64,000 nt of DNA from Bacteroidales bacterium (GTDB lineage Bacteria; Bacteroidota; Bacteroidia; Bacteroidales; F082): contig JAKSMX010000004.1 of the NCBI GenBank assembly GCA_024400305.1, positions 62,001-126,000 of the forward strand, written 5' to 3'. Positions 51,655 to 58,874 of the stretch are shown here, in pieces (the stretch's first letter is position 1; the number at the start of each line of letters is the position of its first letter). The notes beneath the pieces are model-generated. The model saw nothing but the letters and a program-made list of their open reading frames with translations. It did no database searches and had not been told where the DNA came from. A program made the position numbers and the translations under genes.

Positions 51655-53103
51655 TTATTCTATCGAAATTATCCCGTCTCTGTTGGCCGTCATCCTGAAG
51701 GCTTTGTATTGTACGGAATCGCCGGTGATGCATTGCAGAATGAAAATGAGAGTGTAAACGCGCTCGGCGGAAACGGTTTTTATCTCCATGTTGTCGTCAA
51801 TATAATCAACAGGAACAACAGGGTTGTCCATCCTTTTTTTAAGATAATTTATATTGAAACGTGATATGTCGTTGATTCCTTTGAAGTCGTAATCGTAGTG
51901 ATTCTTCAGCATTTCATTGTCAATTGAGACTTTTTTCCTGTAAAGGATGATTTTTTCATCAAAGAAATCGTTGTTTGTCTCAAGTTGTGAACGATTCCTC
52001 ATTTTCATTATTTCAGCCGGGACTTTCTCGTCGGTGATGAAGTCCACGCCTTCCTTTATCCAGCCGATTTTCTTTTTCTTGATGCTGATGTCGTTGCGGA
52101 TGTCAAAATACTTGTCCTTTAGTTTTTTTGCGAAAATCCAACGGGTCAGGTCCTTGATCCTGTCTTTTAATACGTAAGCCGCCACTAACAATATGAAAAT
52201 CAACGCCGGGTAGGAGCCGAAATGTTTCTGGAAAATCAAAGCCACCAAACTGTAAACCAACATTGCAAGTCCTGCCGCCAAGCTGAACGAGACCTGTTGT
52301 ATCGCCTTTCCGTCTTCTGTTTTGTCGATTTTGAGATACAGTGAGCTTTCAATGTATTTTTTCAGGAGACTTCTGCGGTAAAGCAGTTCTTTGTTGGAGT
52401 CGTCCTTGTTTTTCGCCGCCAGCTTATAACCTTGTTTCCTCTTGTATTCTTGCTCTTTGATGATAAAGTCGGCAATGTGTTTCCTTGCTTTGTCTAATGA
52501 TGTATCTTTTTGTCTGTCAATGGCTTTGATGATTCTGATGGTTCGCATTTCAACCTGATGGCTCATGAATTCATCGGTGAAAGCGTATAATGAAATTATG
52601 TTCTCGTCATGTGTTTTTTTAGCCAAAGAATATAATTCGCGATATTTCTTGAAAATCGTTTTTACTCCGTCAATGTAATTGAAACAATGTTCGGCAGCAT
52701 TGGGATTTTTAATATTTGAGTTGATTGAATTGACGTTGTTTCTTACGGCACTTTTGAAAATCGCGCCGAACAGTTTAAGTTGAAACTCCAAGTCAATCAG
52801 GTTTTTGTCTGAATTTTCATTGAGGATGTTTTGAAAAGACGTCTTGACATTGTTCAGTGGAATTGCTTGGTTTTCAACAATATCATTCAATTTGAAAACC
52901 GGCGTGATCAGTCTGATGTTGGACCTCATGTCTTTGTAAAAACGTTCCTTGTCGTAGGTGTTTTTATTCACGTCAAGGCTGTTTGGCACGAAGATCCAGG
53001 AATTCAGGCTGAAGTCGTTTTTCTTTGAACTTTCCTGTCCCGAAAACCAGATTTTGAATTCGATGGAGAACTTGTCGTGTATTTTTGTTTCAACGTCAAT
53101 CAT
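51655..53103 (-). CDS. uncharacterised protein with two central transmembrane helices
   Basis: A 482-residue protein I do not recognise. Residues 1-260 are charged and mostly helical (SLDKARKHIADFIIKEQEYKRKQ), two hydrophobic helices follow (VSFSLAAGLAMLVYSLVALIF and YPALIFILLVAAYVL, about 268-310), then a basic, helical segment and a beta-rich C-terminus (VPVDYIDDNMEIKTVSAERVYTLIFILQC). It has no signal peptide, so both ends are likely cytoplasmic. Its start is 12 bases after the stop of the DASS transporter gene, so it is the last gene of the operon that begins with the phosphate-selective porin. Confidence 0.75.
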   Translation of the reverse strand: MIDVETKIHDKFSIEFKIWFSGQESSKKNDFSLNSWIFVPNSLDVNKNTYDKERFYKDMRSNIRLITPVFKLNDIVENQAIPLNNVKTSFQNILNENSDKNLIDLEFQLKLFGAIFKSAVRNNVNSINSNIKNPNAAEHCFNYIDGVKTIFKKYRELYSLAKKTHDENIISLYAFTDEFMSHQVEMRTIRIIKAIDRQKDTSLDKARKHIADFIIKEQEYKRKQGYKLAAKNKDDSNKELLYRRSLLKKYIESSLYLKIDKTEDGKAIQQVSFSLAAGLAMLVYSLVALIFQKHFGSYPALIFILLVAAYVLKDRIKDLTRWIFAKKLKDKYFDIRNDISIKKKKIGWIKEGVDFITDEKVPAEIMKMRNRSQLETNNDFFDEKIILYRKKVSIDNEMLKNHYDYDFKGINDISRFNINYLKKRMDNPVVPVDYIDDNMEIKTVSAERVYTLIFILQCITGDSVQYKAFRMTANRDGIISIE

Positions 53104-53115
53104 TATTCAAATCAG

Positions 53116-54702
53116 TTAGAAGAATAAACCTGGTGTGATGCCGACCCATTTCAAGACTGTGGCGCCCCATACGAGAATCAAGATCCAGGATATTGTCATC
53201 ATTGTAATTCCGAATTTGAAAGCGTCGGTCATGCTGTATGTGTTTGTATTGTAAAGCAGCAGGGCGGGTTTGCTGTTGAATGGCAGCACGTAACAGTGTT
53301 CAATCAGCATTGCAACCGGCAGTGCGATGCTCATGGCTGGGAATCCGAAACGTGCTTCGACGCCTAACGCTATCGGCACGAAGACCATGGTTCTTATTGT
53401 CTTTGACTGGAAGACCAAGCCGGAATACATCATCACGAAGGTGAGGATTACGTAGAGCACCCAGAAAGGTGTGTCGGATGTTATCCCGAGTCCGTCGAAC
53501 GCTGCGTTTACCATGGTGTTCGGGAGGTCGGTGGCGTTGAGGCCGGAGCCGAGGGTGTAAGCACCTGCAGAGAAAAGCATCAGGTGCCACGGGATGTCAA
53601 CATCGTTCCATTTCACAACTCCGATGCCCGGAAGAAGTGCAAGGATTGCTCCGAGCAACGCTACAATCGTTTCATCGATGTCGTGGAAAGTGCCTTTCGT
53701 CACCCACAGGAAAAGAACTAAGACAAAAATACCGACGGCTTTGTATTCTTCGGCTTTCATTTTCCCCATGGCTTTGAGTTCGTTTTTCAAACGGTCGATG
53801 CCGCCTTCAATCTGAGGTTTCTGTTCTTCTTTTTTCATGGGGAAGAAGACGTAAATACCTAATAATAAACCTATTATGAGAATCAGAAGACTCATCGGGC
53901 CGCAGGTGAAGAGCCAGTCGGCATAGCCAAAGTCGCATGTCCCGACGAATCCGGCGATGAGTGATATTGCGAGCAGGTGTGCGCCGCTGCCGGTATAGAA
54001 GGCGTTTGCGCCGATATTGACCTGAAACAGATTCTGTATCACGAGGTTACGTCCGAAATTGTTCCGGGTGTCGCCTGAAGCACCGTAAATGGCGCAGACC
54101 GTCATGAAAATCGGGAGCATGATTGTCGCCTTGACCGTAGTCGCCGATATGAATGCCGACAATATTATGTTGATAATCAGGAAACTCCATAACACTCCTT
54201 TTGCACTTTTGCCGAATTTTATCACGAAGGCGAGCGCCATTCGTTTGGCAAATTGTGTTTTCACTAACATTCCGGCAAGGACGAATGAGAGGATGTTAAG
54301 CCACATCACAGGATGTCCGAGTTGTGCTAAGGCGTCTTTCTGTGTGGTGACGTTGCAAAGCACGATGCCGAGAATGAGTAGGAGTGAGGTGAGATAATTT
54401 GGGATTGCTTCTGTGATCCAAAGGATGAGACTCGCCACGAAAATCGCAAGCATCGCATAGTTCGTCCGCAGGAACATGTCGTAACCTATGTCATTACAAC
54501 GTTTTAACGCCTTGGCTGTCAATGCGTTTGTGTCGATGTTGTCGATGAAGTCAATGTGACAGAACCAATAAATGACAACGAAGGCGATAATTGCGAGCGG
54601 GCCGCCAAGCCGCGCCATCCATTTCTCGAAGTTGGATTTTTGCATCTTGGGCAGCTTTTCCACCCTGTAATTGTTCATATCCAATGGGTCAAAAGTGTTC
54701 AT
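53116..54702 (-). CDS. DASS/SLC13-family anion transporter
   Basis: A 528-residue inner membrane protein with about 11-12 helices. DASS features: LWITEAIPNYLTSLLLILGIVL, FVLAGMLVKTQFAKRMAL, ISATTVKATIMLPIF (first substrate loop, replacing the SNT motif by SATT) and in the second half FSAGAYTLGSGLNATDLP and HCYVLPFNSKPALLLYNT. A hydrophilic loop at about 280-320 separates the halves. Relatives carry dicarboxylates, sulfate or phosphate; yeast low-affinity phosphate permeases belong to this superfamily. With a phosphate-type porin and two triphosphate-tunnel proteins in the same operon, phosphate is a reasonable guess; dicarboxylate remains possible. Confidence 0.85.
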   Translation of the reverse strand: MNTFDPLDMNNYRVEKLPKMQKSNFEKWMARLGGPLAIIAFVVIYWFCHIDFIDNIDTNALTAKALKRCNDIGYDMFLRTNYAMLAIFVASLILWITEAIPNYLTSLLLILGIVLCNVTTQKDALAQLGHPVMWLNILSFVLAGMLVKTQFAKRMALAFVIKFGKSAKGVLWSFLIINIILSAFISATTVKATIMLPIFMTVCAIYGASGDTRNNFGRNLVIQNLFQVNIGANAFYTGSGAHLLAISLIAGFVGTCDFGYADWLFTCGPMSLLILIIGLLLGIYVFFPMKKEEQKPQIEGGIDRLKNELKAMGKMKAEEYKAVGIFVLVLFLWVTKGTFHDIDETIVALLGAILALLPGIGVVKWNDVDIPWHLMLFSAGAYTLGSGLNATDLPNTMVNAAFDGLGITSDTPFWVLYVILTFVMMYSGLVFQSKTIRTMVFVPIALGVEARFGFPAMSIALPVAMLIEHCYVLPFNSKPALLLYNTNTYSMTDAFKFGITMMTISWILILVWGATVLKWVGITPGLFF

Positions 54703-54755
54703 GGTATAGAGGTTAATTTTTGATTGAACGATTTTTCAGAATCTTTTTGTTTGAA

Positions 54756-54787
54756 AGGCGGAGACGCCGGTTATGACATCTCCGCCT
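54756..54787 (-). terminator. possible attenuator hairpin before the DASS gene
   Basis: AGGCGGAGA (54756-54764) pairs perfectly with TCTCCGCCT (54779-54787). On the minus strand it is followed only by TTTC, so it is a weak terminator that would lower but not stop expression of the transporter and the last gene. Confidence 0.5.
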
Positions 54788-54800
54788 TGTCGGAGAAGAA

Positions 54801-55280
54801 TTATTTCCAGTTTTTATATGGATTTTTCATCAACATTGAGTTGAAATATTTGGGGTCGCCGGTGACTTCTTCGCCGAGCCATGACGGTTTGTCGAACGGT
54901 TCATTCTCGTCTTCGAGCTCCACTTCGGCGACGGTGAGGCCGTCGTTGTCGCCATAGAATTCGTCAACTTCCCATGTGTGTTTGCCGTCGGTGTTTTTCA
55001 CGAGGTAACGTGTCTTGTCGATGACGCCCGGTTCGGCGAGTTCGAGCAGCGACTTCACTTCCTCGACGGGGATCTCCTTTTCCCATTCGAAGCGTGCCGC
55101 GCCCGACGCGTTGCCGATGCCTTTGATTGTGATGTATCCTTTTTCGCCCTTGACCCTCACCCTCACGGTGCGTTCCGGGACGCTGCAAAGATAACCCTGC
55201 GTGATGCGTGTGGCTTTGAAAGCTTCTTTCTTGAAGCAGTCGCACTTAACTAAGAATTTCTTTTCTATTTCCTGTGCCAT
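54801..55280 (-). CDS. CYTH-domain triphosphatase
   Basis: A 159-residue single-domain CYTH protein with the triphosphate tunnel: EIEKKFLV (ExExK) at residues 4-11, TVRVRVKGEKGYITIKG, FEWEKEIP, DKTRYLVK and WEVDEFYG...LTVAEVELEDENE, the alternating acidic and basic strand residues that bind metal and triphosphate. Small bacterial proteins of this kind hydrolyse inorganic triphosphate (tripolyphosphate) or act on thiamine triphosphate or nucleotides. It is the fourth gene of the porin operon, 6 bases downstream of a divergent relative. Confidence 0.92.
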   Translation of the reverse strand: MAQEIEKKFLVKCDCFKKEAFKATRITQGYLCSVPERTVRVRVKGEKGYITIKGIGNASGAARFEWEKEIPVEEVKSLLELAEPGVIDKTRYLVKNTDGKHTWEVDEFYGDNDGLTVAEVELEDENEPFDKPSWLGEEVTGDPKYFNSMLMKNPYKNWK

Positions 55281-55286
55281 AATATG

Positions 55287-55931
55287 TTACTCGTTTGCGA
55301 GCGGTTTGTCGGACATGCCGATGACGCGCTTGATAGCCTGTAAATAATTGATGTTTTCAACACCTTCAAGTCCGATGTCCTTGATGGTCTTCTTGATGTC
55401 TTCAATCTCCGTTGACTCTGAATTGATTGTCATCACTTTCGCGCCGTTGATGAGTACTTCACCCACTTCGCAGATGGTGTCGTTGACCATGTAGCCCCAG
55501 CGTTTCTTGTGGACACGCACGGCGGCGAGGTCTGGGTTGGCTTTGACCATCTCCATGAACTCATCGTATGTGTAAGTGTCTTTCGTGAGTTTGGGCATCT
55601 CTACCATGAAAGCGGGAAACACTTCATTTTCAAGCATTTCCTTTGCCATAGGAAACTCACCTTTCATCAATGGATTCCATTGTTCAAGGCCGTCAACGGT
55701 CTGGACGAAAGTCTTGATGTCCATCTTGCCGTTTCTGATTTTGGTGTTGTTGATGTCGTTTTTGCGTGAGATGATGTATATCTCATCGCTTAGGCGTTCC
55801 CATACCTTTTCCGGTACCGGAGCTGAAAGACGTGCCATACGTTTGTGCGCGTCGCAGAAACATTGTCCGAATGAACGGAACTCAAATCTCGGCTTTGACT
55901 CTTCGCCGATTTTCATTTCTTCTTTTGCCAT
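55287..55931 (-). CDS. divergent triphosphate-tunnel-like protein
   Basis: A 214-residue protein from ATG 55931 (the TTG at 55952 is rejected). No named family comes to mind, but the strand pattern is like a CYTH/TTM tunnel: RFEFRSFGQ, SDEIYIISRKND, NNTKIRNGKMDIKTF, AAVRVHKKRWGYMV, ICEVGEVLINGAKVMTINSESTEIED. Charged residues alternate along each strand and the order resembles the CYTH protein encoded next to it, with FEFR in place of ExExK. A segment WNPLMKGEFPMAKEML lies in the middle. It is cytoplasmic. Together the two genes probably handle linear phosphates; a duplicated and diverged TTM is the best reading, with moderate certainty. Confidence 0.65.
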   Translation of the reverse strand: MAKEEMKIGEESKPRFEFRSFGQCFCDAHKRMARLSAPVPEKVWERLSDEIYIISRKNDINNTKIRNGKMDIKTFVQTVDGLEQWNPLMKGEFPMAKEMLENEVFPAFMVEMPKLTKDTYTYDEFMEMVKANPDLAAVRVHKKRWGYMVNDTICEVGEVLINGAKVMTINSESTEIEDIKKTIKDIGLEGVENINYLQAIKRVIGMSDKPLANE

Positions 55932-55956
55932 TTCTTTTATTTTAAAAACCAAGAAT

Positions 55957-55998
55957 GTCTAACCATTGCCTTGCCATCTGGGTTGACAATGGTTAGAC
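55957..55998 (-). promoter_or_regulatory. perfect 12-bp intercistronic hairpin
   Basis: GTCTAACCATTG (55957-55968) pairs with CAATGGTTAGAC (55987-55998), 18-base loop. On the minus strand it lies between the lamin-tail lipoprotein stop and the TTM-like start and has no adjacent U-tract. It may protect the upstream porin-lipoprotein mRNA or reduce read-through. Confidence 0.6.
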
Positions 55999-56010
55999 GT
56001 AAAATGTTTG

Positions 56011-57324
56011 TTATACTTGTGAGATTTCTTCGCCGTTGTCTGGGTTTGCTTCATCCGGAGTCGGTTCGGCGAGTTTCCAGTCGCCGCCGTCAGGAGTGCG
56101 TGCGTATGACTGTGGCGCGACATTGCTGATGGTCTGTCCCCATTCGCCTGTCTCGCCTCTTGTGAAGACATCTCTTTCTGTTCCGTCAGGCATGTAAAGA
56201 GCGTATTTTATTGTCTTCTTTGCCGACAGTCCGCTGTGAAATACGAGTTCTTCTGGATAACCTTCCTGTACTTCACCCGGAACCACAACATCTTCACTGT
56301 AGAGGAGAAGATAGCCGTATGCAGGGACGACTGTTCCAGCCGCACCGATCCATGTCGGTTCTGTGCCGTCGTCTTTCACGAGATACATCCCTTCGACGGA
56401 AATGTCGAGGTCGCCTTTGTTGTAAAATTCAATGAACTTTGTGTCGCCGTTCAACTCATTTAAAACCAAGTTGGTATAGTCGGGCTCGGCCGGAGGTGTC
56501 GGGCCGTCGTTTTCGAGACCTAAAAGCGGGGTCGTGCCGATCGCGTTGGCCGCGCCCGGAGTCGCATCGGCATAATACCATTCGCCATCGGCGTTGCGGC
56601 TGTATGAAGCCGGAGCAGGAATCATTGACGGGTCGTTCAAGTCAATGTCCACCAAGTTGAAGTCATCGATTGATTCACCGGCAGGGGTGAAGAGCTGTAT
56701 TCTGACATTCTTCTTTGCCGACAGCCCGCTGTGGAAGATATGATTTTCCGGAACTTCAGGATGGTCGGCGGCGACATCTTCGCTGTAAAGCAGCAGATAA
56801 CCACCGGCTTCGATTGTGATGTCAGCAGTGCCAGACCAGTTCTGCTCGGCGTCTTTCTCAATATAGCAGCCAGCCATGTTGATGGCTTCAGCACCAGCGT
56901 TGTAAATTTCAATGAACTTGTCGTTGCCGTTAAGCTCGTTGAGACACAGTTTTGAATAGTCAATCTGAACGGCACCGACAGTGTATTCCATTGTCGCAGA
57001 GATATTTGTCATGTTTTCATTTTTCGCTTTTACATAGAAGCTGACTTTTGTGTCGTTTGGCTGTGCGGGAATCACAGCTGAAAAAATGTTGTCAACGTTT
57101 GTCATTGCAACGGTTTTATCCTCGGCACCTGCATTGTAAACGAGTTCCGCTGTGACTCCTGTGAAGCTCTTGATTGTAGCATAAACCGTCACATTATTGA
57201 AATATGAAACAGCTGTTGGGGTGTATTTCACGTCTGTTATTGTCAATCCTGGATATTTTTCGTCTTTGACGCATGATACCAATCCGAGAACGATGGCCAA
57301 TGCCATAAATAATATCTTCTTCAT
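56011..57324 (-). CDS. lipoprotein with two lamin-tail domains
   Basis: A 437-residue lipoprotein (signal peptide ending GLVSC, Cys18). An N-terminal Ig-like domain (about 25-115: YTPTAVSYFNNVTVYATIK) is followed by two lamin-tail domains: LCLNELNGNDKFIEIYNAGAEAINMAGCYIEKD ... GYLLLYSED (about 125-240) and LVLNELNGDTKFIEFYNKGDLDISVEGMYLVKDD ... GYLLLYSED (about 285-405). Bacterial lamin-tail domains are thought to anchor or target extracellular enzymes, often phosphoesterases. There is no catalytic motif here, so a binding role at the cell surface is likely. Gap to the porin gene is 45 bases, so the two probably act together. Confidence 0.85.
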   Translation of the reverse strand: MKKILFMALAIVLGLVSCVKDEKYPGLTITDVKYTPTAVSYFNNVTVYATIKSFTGVTAELVYNAGAEDKTVAMTNVDNIFSAVIPAQPNDTKVSFYVKAKNENMTNISATMEYTVGAVQIDYSKLCLNELNGNDKFIEIYNAGAEAINMAGCYIEKDAEQNWSGTADITIEAGGYLLLYSEDVAADHPEVPENHIFHSGLSAKKNVRIQLFTPAGESIDDFNLVDIDLNDPSMIPAPASYSRNADGEWYYADATPGAANAIGTTPLLGLENDGPTPPAEPDYTNLVLNELNGDTKFIEFYNKGDLDISVEGMYLVKDDGTEPTWIGAAGTVVPAYGYLLLYSEDVVVPGEVQEGYPEELVFHSGLSAKKTIKYALYMPDGTERDVFTRGETGEWGQTISNVAPQSYARTPDGGDWKLAEPTPDEANPDNGEEISQV

Positions 57325-57369
57325 ATTTTTAAATTTTAATTTTGACTATTAGATTATTAACTTTACGAT

Positions 57370-58767
57370 TTAGAATGCAATCTGGAAACGTGCGAGAAGC
57401 ATGTGGTAGTTTACGCCGACGTCATCTCCGACAACTTGGGTGTAGTCTTTTGTGGCGTTGCCGTTAGCATCAAGGCCGCAGTAGAGTTTGCCTTTGCCGT
57501 TTGCATAGCGGTCGTTGTTGACATACTGATAGTTAAGGGCGATTTTCACGTTGTTTGTGAAATAGAAATTGAGGCCAACACCAAGGAGGTCGGCAGAACC
57601 GCCGAATATTGCTTCTGAAACAACGCGGTCTTTGTAGTCGTTCATGTCGATGTACTCATACCTGAGAGCCAGTTCGATGTCGCCCCAGTCTTTGCCGTTG
57701 CGGACGCGGTTGAATTTGCCGCCGTCGGAGTCGTATCTCTGGCTGCCGCCGAGAAGGAGATAGCCTGCTTCGACATACCAGCCGCTGAAATAGTAAGGCT
57801 TGCTGAGATTCATTTCTTTTTTCAGATATGTCCAGTCGGCCATCCATGCGCCTTCAGCACGCAAACCCTTGTAGTGACCGGCTATTTCAGCTGTGGCGAT
57901 GAGGTTGTAGTCGGTGTTCTTGATGTCGTCGGTGTCAACGTATTTCCTGCGGTTGATGTTTGTGGTGTTACGGCAGCTGTAACGTGTGTATCCGAGATGA
58001 CCGTTTTCGTCTGACGTCTTCGGCGTGTCATACATGAATGCGCCACCGACATGAATGCCATAGTTTTCCTCGTTGATAGGACGGACGGCGAGTTTGGCGA
58101 TGTATGAGAGACCCTCGTCCATGCCGTAGTCTTTGTTCTGGTCTTCAACAAAAGTTCTTGTCTCCTGACCTTCAATCTCCTGGAACAGAATGCTGGCACT
58201 TGCAAACCAGAATTTGTCGGTGTATTTGGCGAAGATGCCGAGGTGACGGCTTGGCGCCAACGCGCTGACAATCATAGGACGTTCCATGAATTCAAGGTAA
58301 CGTGATGATGTGTTACGTGAAATTGAGAAATCAGGTTTCATGTTACCGGCTGTGAATTGGAAACGTTTCAAGCCTGTGTAACGGATGATGGCGTCTTTCA
58401 ACTCAAACGAGCCGTTGGCAAGTTCCATGTCAACTTCACCATACCAATCCGGTGTCACCTGAGCTTTGACAGCCATACGTGCCCTGCGGATGCTCGCTCC
58501 GTTTCCAATCGGGTCAGCCCATTCCTGCTCGCCGAAAAACGCGCCGAAATCCACCTGAACCCTGGCATCAAACCAGAACTTGTAATCTTTGTTTTTTGAT
58601 TCAAAAACCAAGATGCCGTCTCTGCTTGTCGTTGACAAATCTTTGACATCTACTTTGTTACCATACTGGTCAATTGCTTGATTTTGAACGTTCAACGCTT
58701 TTTCAGCTTGACCAAACACTGTCGTTGCAACGAACATTAGTGCGAAAAGAAAAGATACCTTTTTCAT
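57370..58767 (-). CDS. phosphate-selective porin O/P-type outer membrane protein
   Basis: A 465-residue outer membrane beta-barrel with signal peptide MKKVSFLFALMFVATTVFG. The OprO/OprP family features are clear: WFDARVQVDFGAFFGE, GASIRRARMAVKAQVTPDWYGEVDMELANGSFELKDAIIRYTGL, FTAGNMKPDFSISRNTSSRYLEFMERP and a C-terminal strand ending in MLLARFQIAF (terminal Phe for BAM recognition). OprP prefers phosphate and OprO pyrophosphate, but Bacteroidetes members are poorly studied. It is the first gene of a six-gene operon with its own promoter and leader hairpin. Confidence 0.9.
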   Translation of the reverse strand: MKKVSFLFALMFVATTVFGQAEKALNVQNQAIDQYGNKVDVKDLSTTSRDGILVFESKNKDYKFWFDARVQVDFGAFFGEQEWADPIGNGASIRRARMAVKAQVTPDWYGEVDMELANGSFELKDAIIRYTGLKRFQFTAGNMKPDFSISRNTSSRYLEFMERPMIVSALAPSRHLGIFAKYTDKFWFASASILFQEIEGQETRTFVEDQNKDYGMDEGLSYIAKLAVRPINEENYGIHVGGAFMYDTPKTSDENGHLGYTRYSCRNTTNINRRKYVDTDDIKNTDYNLIATAEIAGHYKGLRAEGAWMADWTYLKKEMNLSKPYYFSGWYVEAGYLLLGGSQRYDSDGGKFNRVRNGKDWGDIELALRYEYIDMNDYKDRVVSEAIFGGSADLLGVGLNFYFTNNVKIALNYQYVNNDRYANGKGKLYCGLDANGNATKDYTQVVGDDVGVNYHMLLARFQIAF

Positions 58768-58820: not shown

Positions 58821-58843
58821 GTTAGTGCCATGTTTTTGATGTG

Positions 58844-58874
58844 CAAAATTATAAACGTTAAATGTAAAAAACAA
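58844..58874 (-). promoter_or_regulatory. promoter of the porin-lamin tail-TTM-DASS operon
   Basis: On the minus strand TTG (58874-58872), 20-base spacer, TAATTTTG (58851-58844). A close match to the Bacteroidetes consensus; the leader to 58767 is about 70 bases. No other convincing promoter was found inside the operon. Confidence 0.75.

Follow-up and report, generated by a model that had tools for sequence, protein, structure and literature searches.

Introduction

Described systems close to the locus reported here include the triphosphatases of the CYTH family, the carriers of the DASS superfamily and the yeast Vtc4p polymerase. The CYTH enzyme of N. europaea is described as a specific inorganic triphosphatase, and the same report states that triphosphate was not detected at a significant level in extracts of E. 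coli or brain (PMC3440374). The CYTH inorganic triphosphatases have a clear reaction, and their job is unclear. In DASS carriers, the Asn residues of two SNT motifs coordinate the carboxylates of the substrate, according to two studies (PMC7553777 and PMC8537002), and the four Glu residues of the acidic patch of AtTTM3 are reported to be basic residues in Vtc4p (PMC4641920). Here we describe a six-gene cluster on the minus strand of a 64,000-nucleotide stretch ("the window") of contig JAKSMX010000004.1 of a Bacteroidales bacterium (GCA_024400305.1), in which a CYTH protein and a second, divergent protein of the triphosphate-tunnel (TTM) fold, TTMd, stand with an outer-membrane porin, a lamin-tail lipoprotein, a DASS-superfamily permease and a protein of 482 residues, M482. 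The cluster is probably a locus of Bacteroidota for the acquisition of phosphate and the handling of phosphate chains, present in the window in a reduced form. Because the CYTH protein here has a second tunnel protein, phosphate porins, carriers and, in relatives, a PhnD-type sensor as neighbors, its job becomes testable.

Results

The cluster recurs around TTMd

Related loci (numbered L031 and upwards) were found via TTMd and partners were counted on the strand of TTMd at a BLAST E value of 1e-4, so that the counts measure what accompanies TTMd. Among the best 80 of 517 close relatives (L071 to L150; n = 77 after L078, L120 and L147, all <6 kb, had been left out), the porin was found in 75 loci, the lipoprotein in 75, the CYTH protein in 77, the DASS permease in 75 and M482 in 40. 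The corresponding numbers were 35, 33, 39, 34 and 19 in the 40 loci of the family and order (L031 to L070, sharing at least six genomes, L031 to L036, with the former set) and 18, 16, 19, 18 and 1 in 20 loci from outside the order, two of them (L168 and L251) truncated at the end of a contig. The cluster is not a chance arrangement: the porin, lipoprotein, CYTH and DASS genes recur around TTMd, inside the order as well as in further classes of the phylum. The co-occurrence in other genomes on which the preliminary description depended is thus seen in most relatives examined.

The close relatives found were mostly gut or rumen Bacteroidales, and the host of the cluster, with a genome of 2.86 Mb, is a gut bacterium. 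With the window's genome included, TTMd was present in 71 of 149 genomes of the family, 27 of 198 of the order and 11 of 296 of the phylum. When 79 TTMd sequences were placed in a tree, the state "outside the order" required four changes, of which well-supported branches forced three. TTMd from outside the order entered the window-type clade in three positions (supports of 100/96, 83/87 and 95/78; midpoint root), a pattern that suggests horizontal transfer. Patchy presence and likely horizontal transfer would suit genes that share a mobile island and are only loosely linked, without a common pathway; we regard this as very improbable, since one set of partners reappears in two gene orders and alongside members that point to phosphate (DUF47, Pit, a PhnD-type sensor and Ppx).

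Relatives tie the locus to phosphate

The locus is tied to phosphate because relatives add DUF47, Pit-type genes and a divergently placed PhnD-type binding protein. DUF47 and Pit-labelled genes were found in 28 and 25 of the 77 close-relative loci, in 21 and 24 of the 40 family and order loci and in 16 and 16 of the 20 loci outside the order; in the last, the opposite strand carried a PhnD-type protein in 19 loci, a kinase in 18 and a regulator in 17. PhoU_div (DUF47) and PHO4 were both confirmed by Pfam in L053, and PHO4 exceeded its cut-off in L037, L042, L050, L144, L168, L169 and L249. Two very distant TTMd loci (L183 and L252, same genus), the only ones fetched, both have the order DUF47-PIT-TTMd-CYTH. 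These partners, together with a Ppx/GppA gene, strengthen the phosphate link proposed at the outset. That Ppx/GppA phosphatase gene (L170:211-1125) immediately follows TTMd, and the PhnD-kinase-regulator cassette of the locus is divergently oriented. In 17 of the 77 loci from the best 80 of 517 close relatives, TTMd has an MgtC family gene nearby on its own strand; Pfam confirmed this gene at L112:12701-13321.

A gene can carry the Pit label solely because it shares a C-terminal helix-turn-helix (HTH). The membrane part of Pit was matched in 19 of 25 labelled genes in L071 to L150, in 20 of 24 in L031 to L070 and in 16 of 16 outside the order. Within the order, each of the 44 Pit-labelled open reading frames (ORFs) of more than 400 aa ends in a LuxR-type HTH by eye, as against 0 of 13 outside it; Pfam GerE exceeded its cut-off in five of seven in-order Pit-labelled proteins and in none of three others, and fell just below it in L053. 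In 6 of the 44 HTH-bearing ORFs, the membrane part was without a Pit match at E 1e-3; a carrier joined to a DNA-binding domain is here perhaps becoming a membrane-bound, phosphate-responsive regulator. Examples of the fusion are L037:2749-4494, L042:2445-4289, L053:3915-5666 and L112:6145-7749. Outside the order, the PhnD-kinase-regulator cassette stands in place of the HTH-fused Pit.

PF12974 (Phosphonate-bd) was matched in all four cassette binding proteins scanned (L166, L169, L170 and L171), and the kinase and a Sigma54-activator (NtrC-type) regulator were confirmed by Pfam in L169; the remaining cassette counts rest on BLAST. The closest PDB entries of the binding protein were ArrX, PtxB, AioX and PhnD. 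Its Gly158, invariant in 9 of 9 sequences, aligned with a Cys of ArrX, and one report places AioX Cys106 and PhnD Gly65 at the same position and gives ArrX a Kd of 1 uM for arsenate and 150 uM for phosphate (PMC5908839). Because Gly158 occupies the place of the arsenite-binding Cys, the sequence argues for a phosphate- or phosphonate-type ligand, arsenate being still a possible one. An arsenic system of the AioX type was considered and is disfavored by the Gly in place of Cys in 9 of 9 sequences; no arsenic genes were recognized among the recurrent members, for which no dedicated search was made.

TTMd is predicted to be a divergent tunnel protein

No Pfam model for CYTH or VTC matched any of the 25 members of either of two TTMd alignments at E ≤ 1 (PF01928, 0 of 25 in both at E up to 1). 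Other Pfam families gave scattered weak matches only (best E, 0.0041), a scan of NCBIfam gave none, and there was neither an SPX match in the Pfam scans nor an evident membrane domain. An AlphaFold2 model built from 33 close sequences (pLDDT, 70; pTM, 0.69) had eight strands in the order of TTM proteins followed by a C-terminal helix (residues 196 to 204). When this model was compared with the PDB by Foldseek, rows 1 to 17 were all of TTM type, judged partly by title (best row, E 3.2e-4, probability 1.00). They included BH2851, YgiF and AtTTM3 with tripolyphosphate, several having been solved with that ligand, and further Arabidopsis TTM1, GBAA_1210, a jujube adenylyl cyclase, thiamine triphosphatases and Pct1; entries called "putative adenylate cyclases" we take to be CYTH proteins. 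Searched against the PDB at E ≤ 10, the broad TTMd profile hit only two chains, 1yem (E 0.0059) and 2dc4 (E 0.35), both presumably CYTH structures. TTMd is thus predicted by modeling to have the TTM fold, with remote kinship, and the fold check that had been proposed for this gene, first read as a divergent TTM-type protein, gave the expected eight-stranded tunnel.

TTMd nonetheless stands outside the CYTH family proper. Its signature is R15-x-E17-x-R19 and not ExExK, and therefore it is not filed as CYTH. All 25 members of the broad alignment have E17 and R19, along with F21, Y52, N62, K73, W85, K142, E155, N193 and Y196; E172 was kept in at least 90%. As far as residues can be mapped, the acidic patch appears altered, with E17 and E172 kept and R15 and T174 non-acidic; position 174 is Thr in window-type members and Glu in several distant ones. 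The protein is highly conserved, with 71 to 81% identity to 15 one-to-one relatives from other genera or families, and 97% identity to that of Candidatus Limimorpha caballi. Tandem second copies with approximately 34 to 41% identity to the window's TTMd occurred in 10 of the 40 family and order loci (e.g., L042:8061-8690, L056:8444-9058 and L063:6129-6785).

Two other roles for TTMd bear on these residues. In the first, TTMd would be a VTC4-like polymerase that stores imported phosphate as polyphosphate, with the CYTH protein or Ppx as depolymerase. R15 and T174, as mapped to the acidic patch, are in keeping with this, Vtc4p being reported to have basic residues in place of that patch (PMC4641920), as are the Ppx/GppA gene adjoining TTMd in L170 and the lack of a PPK1 match in the source genome. 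E17, invariant in 25 of 25, is unlike a fully basic patch, however, and no membrane domain is evident; PPK1 was equally frequent in genomes with and without TTMd (23 of 40 in each group, chosen by us), and was absent from the genus in both groups (0 of 10 and 0 of 9). We consider storage improbable, and TTMd as a replacement for PPK1 was rejected as a general rule on the same 23-of-40 counts. In the second, TTMd would be a catalytically dead TTM protein that senses phosphate chains as an SPX-like regulator of the transporters. Its frequent position as the first gene beside the sensor cassette and its high conservation without ExExK speak for such a role, but the retention of E17, K73, K142 and E155 (25 of 25) and of E172 (at least 90%) is what is expected of an enzyme, and we hold a purely sensory TTMd to be doubtful.

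The CYTH protein and the DASS permease

The CYTH protein begins with MAQEIEKKFLV and so carries ExExK, in agreement with its first assignment as a canonical CYTH protein. Residues E4, E6, K8, R40, R42, K53, E65, E67, K89, R91, E119 and E121 were invariant in 18 of 18 sequences, and the nearest solved chains were 3typ and 2fbl (NE1496). It is likely an inorganic triphosphatase, judged from these residues and its homology to NE1496. The source genome has no other CYTH match.

The permease fell just below the NCBIfam cut-off of TIGR00785 (195.4 versus 198.6 bits). In place of SNT/SNT, it has SAT (residues 186 to 188) and SKT (residues 433 to 435). Among 116 cluster DASS proteins (the window's and the ORFs of >450 aa in L031 to L150 and L165 to L174, some genomes being counted twice), the first Asn was replaced by Ala and the second by Lys in every case. 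Among 23 ordinary DASS proteins, including a second one from the source genome, the first Asn was kept in 23 and the second in 20, the other three having Asp or His and none Lys; this control excludes L206, where the ORF was wrong, L211 and L215, which had no central ORF, and the five cluster members L207 to L210 and L213. The loss of SNT would fit an anion other than a carboxylate, and a DASS carrier changed at both motifs likely has a new transport specificity.

Layout and expression of the locus

All six ORFs were confirmed on the minus strand in the order first given (Table 1), with gaps, from the porin to M482, of 45, 79, 6, 98 and 12 bases, within the range of 6 to 98 stated in the preliminary description. 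The promoter proposed there at 58844-58874 was likewise recovered, as a TAATTTTGC box with an upstream TTG. Its "six-gene operon" stands as to genes and order and is slightly narrow as to composition, relatives carrying members that the window's cluster lacks (DUF47, Pit, a propeller lipoprotein, a second TTMd and the sensor cassette). The window contains 27 boxes of the TAATTTTGC type, compared with a mean of 11.4 after shuffling, and 10 of 20 porin upstream regions showed a TANNTTTG box, a count taken without a chance control. The site was assigned by what we take to be the Bacteroidetes-type promoter consensus; a sigma-70 scan of the window did not report it.

The locus is bounded upstream by the end of pncB, with a hairpin and a T run, and downstream by the convergent aroC, whose end lies 14 bases from the last stop of the cluster. 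These and other flanking genes were rejected as members, being adjacent only in the nearest relatives.

Table 1. Positions of the cluster genes and associated elements in the window
Feature	Position	Strand	Basis
Promoter, Bacteroidetes-type	58843..58874	-	TTG, 58874-58872; -7 box TAATTTTGC, 58851-58843; pattern and shuffle expectation
OprO/OprP-type outer-membrane porin	57370..58767	-	PF07396, E 9.9e-37, 127.5 bits (cut-off, 20.9)
Lamin-tail lipoprotein	56011..57324	-	PF00932, two stretches, E 8.4e-23, 81.3 bits (cut-off, 34.3)
Hairpin, lipoprotein–TTMd gap	55957..55998	-	Gap-sequence z, -4.8
TTMd, divergent triphosphate-tunnel-fold protein (predicted)	55287..55931	-	214 aa; AlphaFold2, Foldseek, alignments, PDB profile
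CYTH protein, ExExK	54801..55280	-	PF01928, E 2.1e-15, 57.5 bits (cut-off, 23.2)
Hairpin, CYTH–DASS gap	54755..54788	-	Gap-sequence z, -5.0
DASS-superfamily permease	53116..54702	-	PF00939, E 1.5e-52, 179.6 bits (cut-off, 27), near full-length
M482	51655..53103	-	482 aa; no Pfam family over cut-off

Two strong hairpins lie in gaps on either side of the TTMd-CYTH pair, and a terminator scan reported no minus-strand site in either gap. Relatives have hairpins at both of these places with differing, variable sequences, and in other relatives these gaps are short or the genes overlap by one base. For these reasons, a division into three transcription units at the hairpins is disfavored, and the cluster is likely one transcript with internal hairpins. 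In L071 to L150, strict hairpins occurred in 21 of 73 and 28 of 64 of the two gaps flanking TTMd-CYTH, and in 0 of 73, 3 of 59 and 0 of 33 of the other cluster gaps; this concentration is partly explained by differing median gap lengths (28 and 53 bases versus 35, 4 and 12). An origin from scattered mobile palindromes was dropped, the strict hairpins being nearly confined to those two gaps. They may set the relative expression of genes inside the operon.

The N terminus of the porin resembles a signal peptide by eye, and its nearest solved chains are Porin P (2o4v, E 1.7e-14) and Porin O (4rjx/4rjw). Of the OprP residues that we take to determine selectivity, K121 aligned with R, K313 with D and K323 with R, and R59-R60 were kept. 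The lipoprotein has a lipobox-like LVSC at residues 15 to 18 by eye. SdiA-regulated/phytase-like propeller proteins with a lipoprotein-like N terminus (by eye) are encoded in relatives (e.g., L042:7297-8058, L056:9316-10053 and L168:9536-10303); their genes are placed between those of the lipoprotein and TTMd or adjoin a second lamin-tail gene, and they were counted in 8 of the 77 close-relative loci, 12 of the 40 family and order loci and 15 of the 20 outside the order.

M482 has two hydrophobic segments near residues 273 to 311 by eye, and searches of Pfam and of PDB sequences assigned it to no family. It is present in 20 of 198 genomes of the order. Eight loci were taken around CYTH from genomes in which TTMd had no match (L175 to L182); in three of them (L175, L179 and L182), M482 adjoined CYTH without TTMd, porin or DASS, and M482 and CYTH are possibly a functional pair.

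Discussion

Gene content, synteny, the predicted fold and motifs were computed, and from these we infer substrates, reactions and cell locations for a locus that probably serves phosphate acquisition and phosphate-chain handling. The porin would pass phosphate-type anions across the outer membrane, and the lipoprotein, joined by the propeller protein in many relatives, would help to capture or release them. Transport across the inner membrane would fall to Pit-DUF47 in many other lineages and, in the lineage of the window, to the remaining DASS-type permease and an unlinked Pit. In the cytoplasm, the CYTH protein would convert triphosphate to pyrophosphate and phosphate, and TTMd, with its conserved basic residues and altered acidic patch, would bind or process a related short phosphate chain. 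Uptake of polyphosphate by the locus is possible.

Several observations weigh against this assignment. The window's own cluster has no Pit, DUF47 or sensor, the sole Pit match of the source genome being on another contig; the Pit-like gene of close relatives is often degenerate, PHO4 failing to reach its cut-off in L112 and giving no match in L127, nor in L063 from the order set. Porin_O_P is a broad family, and the specificity of the porin is not readable from R/D/R at the selectivity positions. CYTH is common without the cluster, with 121 of 198 genomes of the order against 27 of 198 for TTMd. The confidence of the TTMd model is moderate (the pLDDT of 70 falling to <50 in residues 1 to 40), and just two of its Foldseek rows had E < 0.001, the best rows having TM-scores of 0.40 to 0.44, partly because residues 1 to 40 are poorly modeled; hhalign between TTMd and the cluster's own CYTH alignment gave a probability of 0.1%. 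The PDB relatives of the DASS permease are carriers of carboxylates and sulphate, the best matches being chloroplast dicarboxylate transporters 1 and 2.1, of which the first also lacks SNT at the first place in the PDB alignment. TctA/TctCB genes replace DASS in L043 and L243, in otherwise similar loci.

The last two points speak for a phosphate acquisition coupled to carboxylates, as do the genes for TctA and a fused TctC-TctB (tripartite tricarboxylate transporter) near DASS in L042 and L047. DASS or Tct would move citrate or another di- or tricarboxylate, by import or exchange, to mobilize or counterbalance metal-bound phosphate, Pit and the porin would take up the phosphate, and the TTM pair would clear internal triphosphate. 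Set against this is the replacement of both Asn residues in 116 of 116 cluster permeases, residues reported to coordinate the substrate carboxylates in DASS carriers (PMC7553777 and PMC8537002); moreover, no carboxylate-metabolism gene was identified among the recurrent members, which were not searched gene by gene. We judge this coupling rather unlikely. Uptake and cleavage of short inorganic polyphosphates, in which the SAT/SKT permease would carry pyrophosphate or triphosphate, CYTH would cut it and TTMd would be a new TTM family for its processing or sensing, is put forward only tentatively; there, Tct could replace the permease because pyro- or triphosphate would be an oxyanion mimic of citrate. 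The permease may carry a carboxylate or another anion: SNT is lost, while the nearest solved relatives are carboxylate carriers and Tct genes can take its place.

Comparison with known systems

No name or description of the cluster was found in the literature covered, most subscription journals and preprints lying outside that coverage, which agrees with the first impression that its composition matches no named system. Yeast VTC and the phosphate carriers PHO87/90/91, which are DASS-like, likewise combine a protein of tunnel fold with a DASS-like carrier around phosphate; TTMd differs from VTC in lacking an SPX match in the Pfam scans and an evident membrane domain. With cassettes of the AioXSR/ArrX type, the relatives outside the order share a PhnD-like binding protein, a histidine kinase and an NtrC-type regulator, head-to-head with their targets, but the binding protein has Gly in place of Cys, the neighbors are phosphate genes, and the cassette is absent from the window's cluster. 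The permease shares PF00939 and PDB matches with DASS/SLC13 carriers (VcINDY, chloroplast dicarboxylate transporter 1 and 6wtw, which we take to be LaINDY), and differs from them in having SAT/SKT in place of SNT/SNT and in falling just under the TIGR00785 cut-off. Compared with the CYTH triphosphatases (NE1496, E. coli YgiF and AtTTM3), the cluster's CYTH protein keeps ExExK and the tunnel residues, whereas TTMd shares the predicted fold and has RxExR, an apparently altered acidic patch and no Pfam CYTH match.

With the OprO/OprP porins and Pit-DUF47 systems, the cluster shares a Porin_O_P porin and, in relatives, also DUF47 and PHO4. Neither Pst nor alkaline phosphatase was recognized among the recurrent members, which were not searched gene by gene. 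To what is found in the envelope systems of phosphate starvation, the cluster adds two proteins of known or predicted TTM fold, a DASS permease without SNT, lamin-tail lipoproteins and M482.

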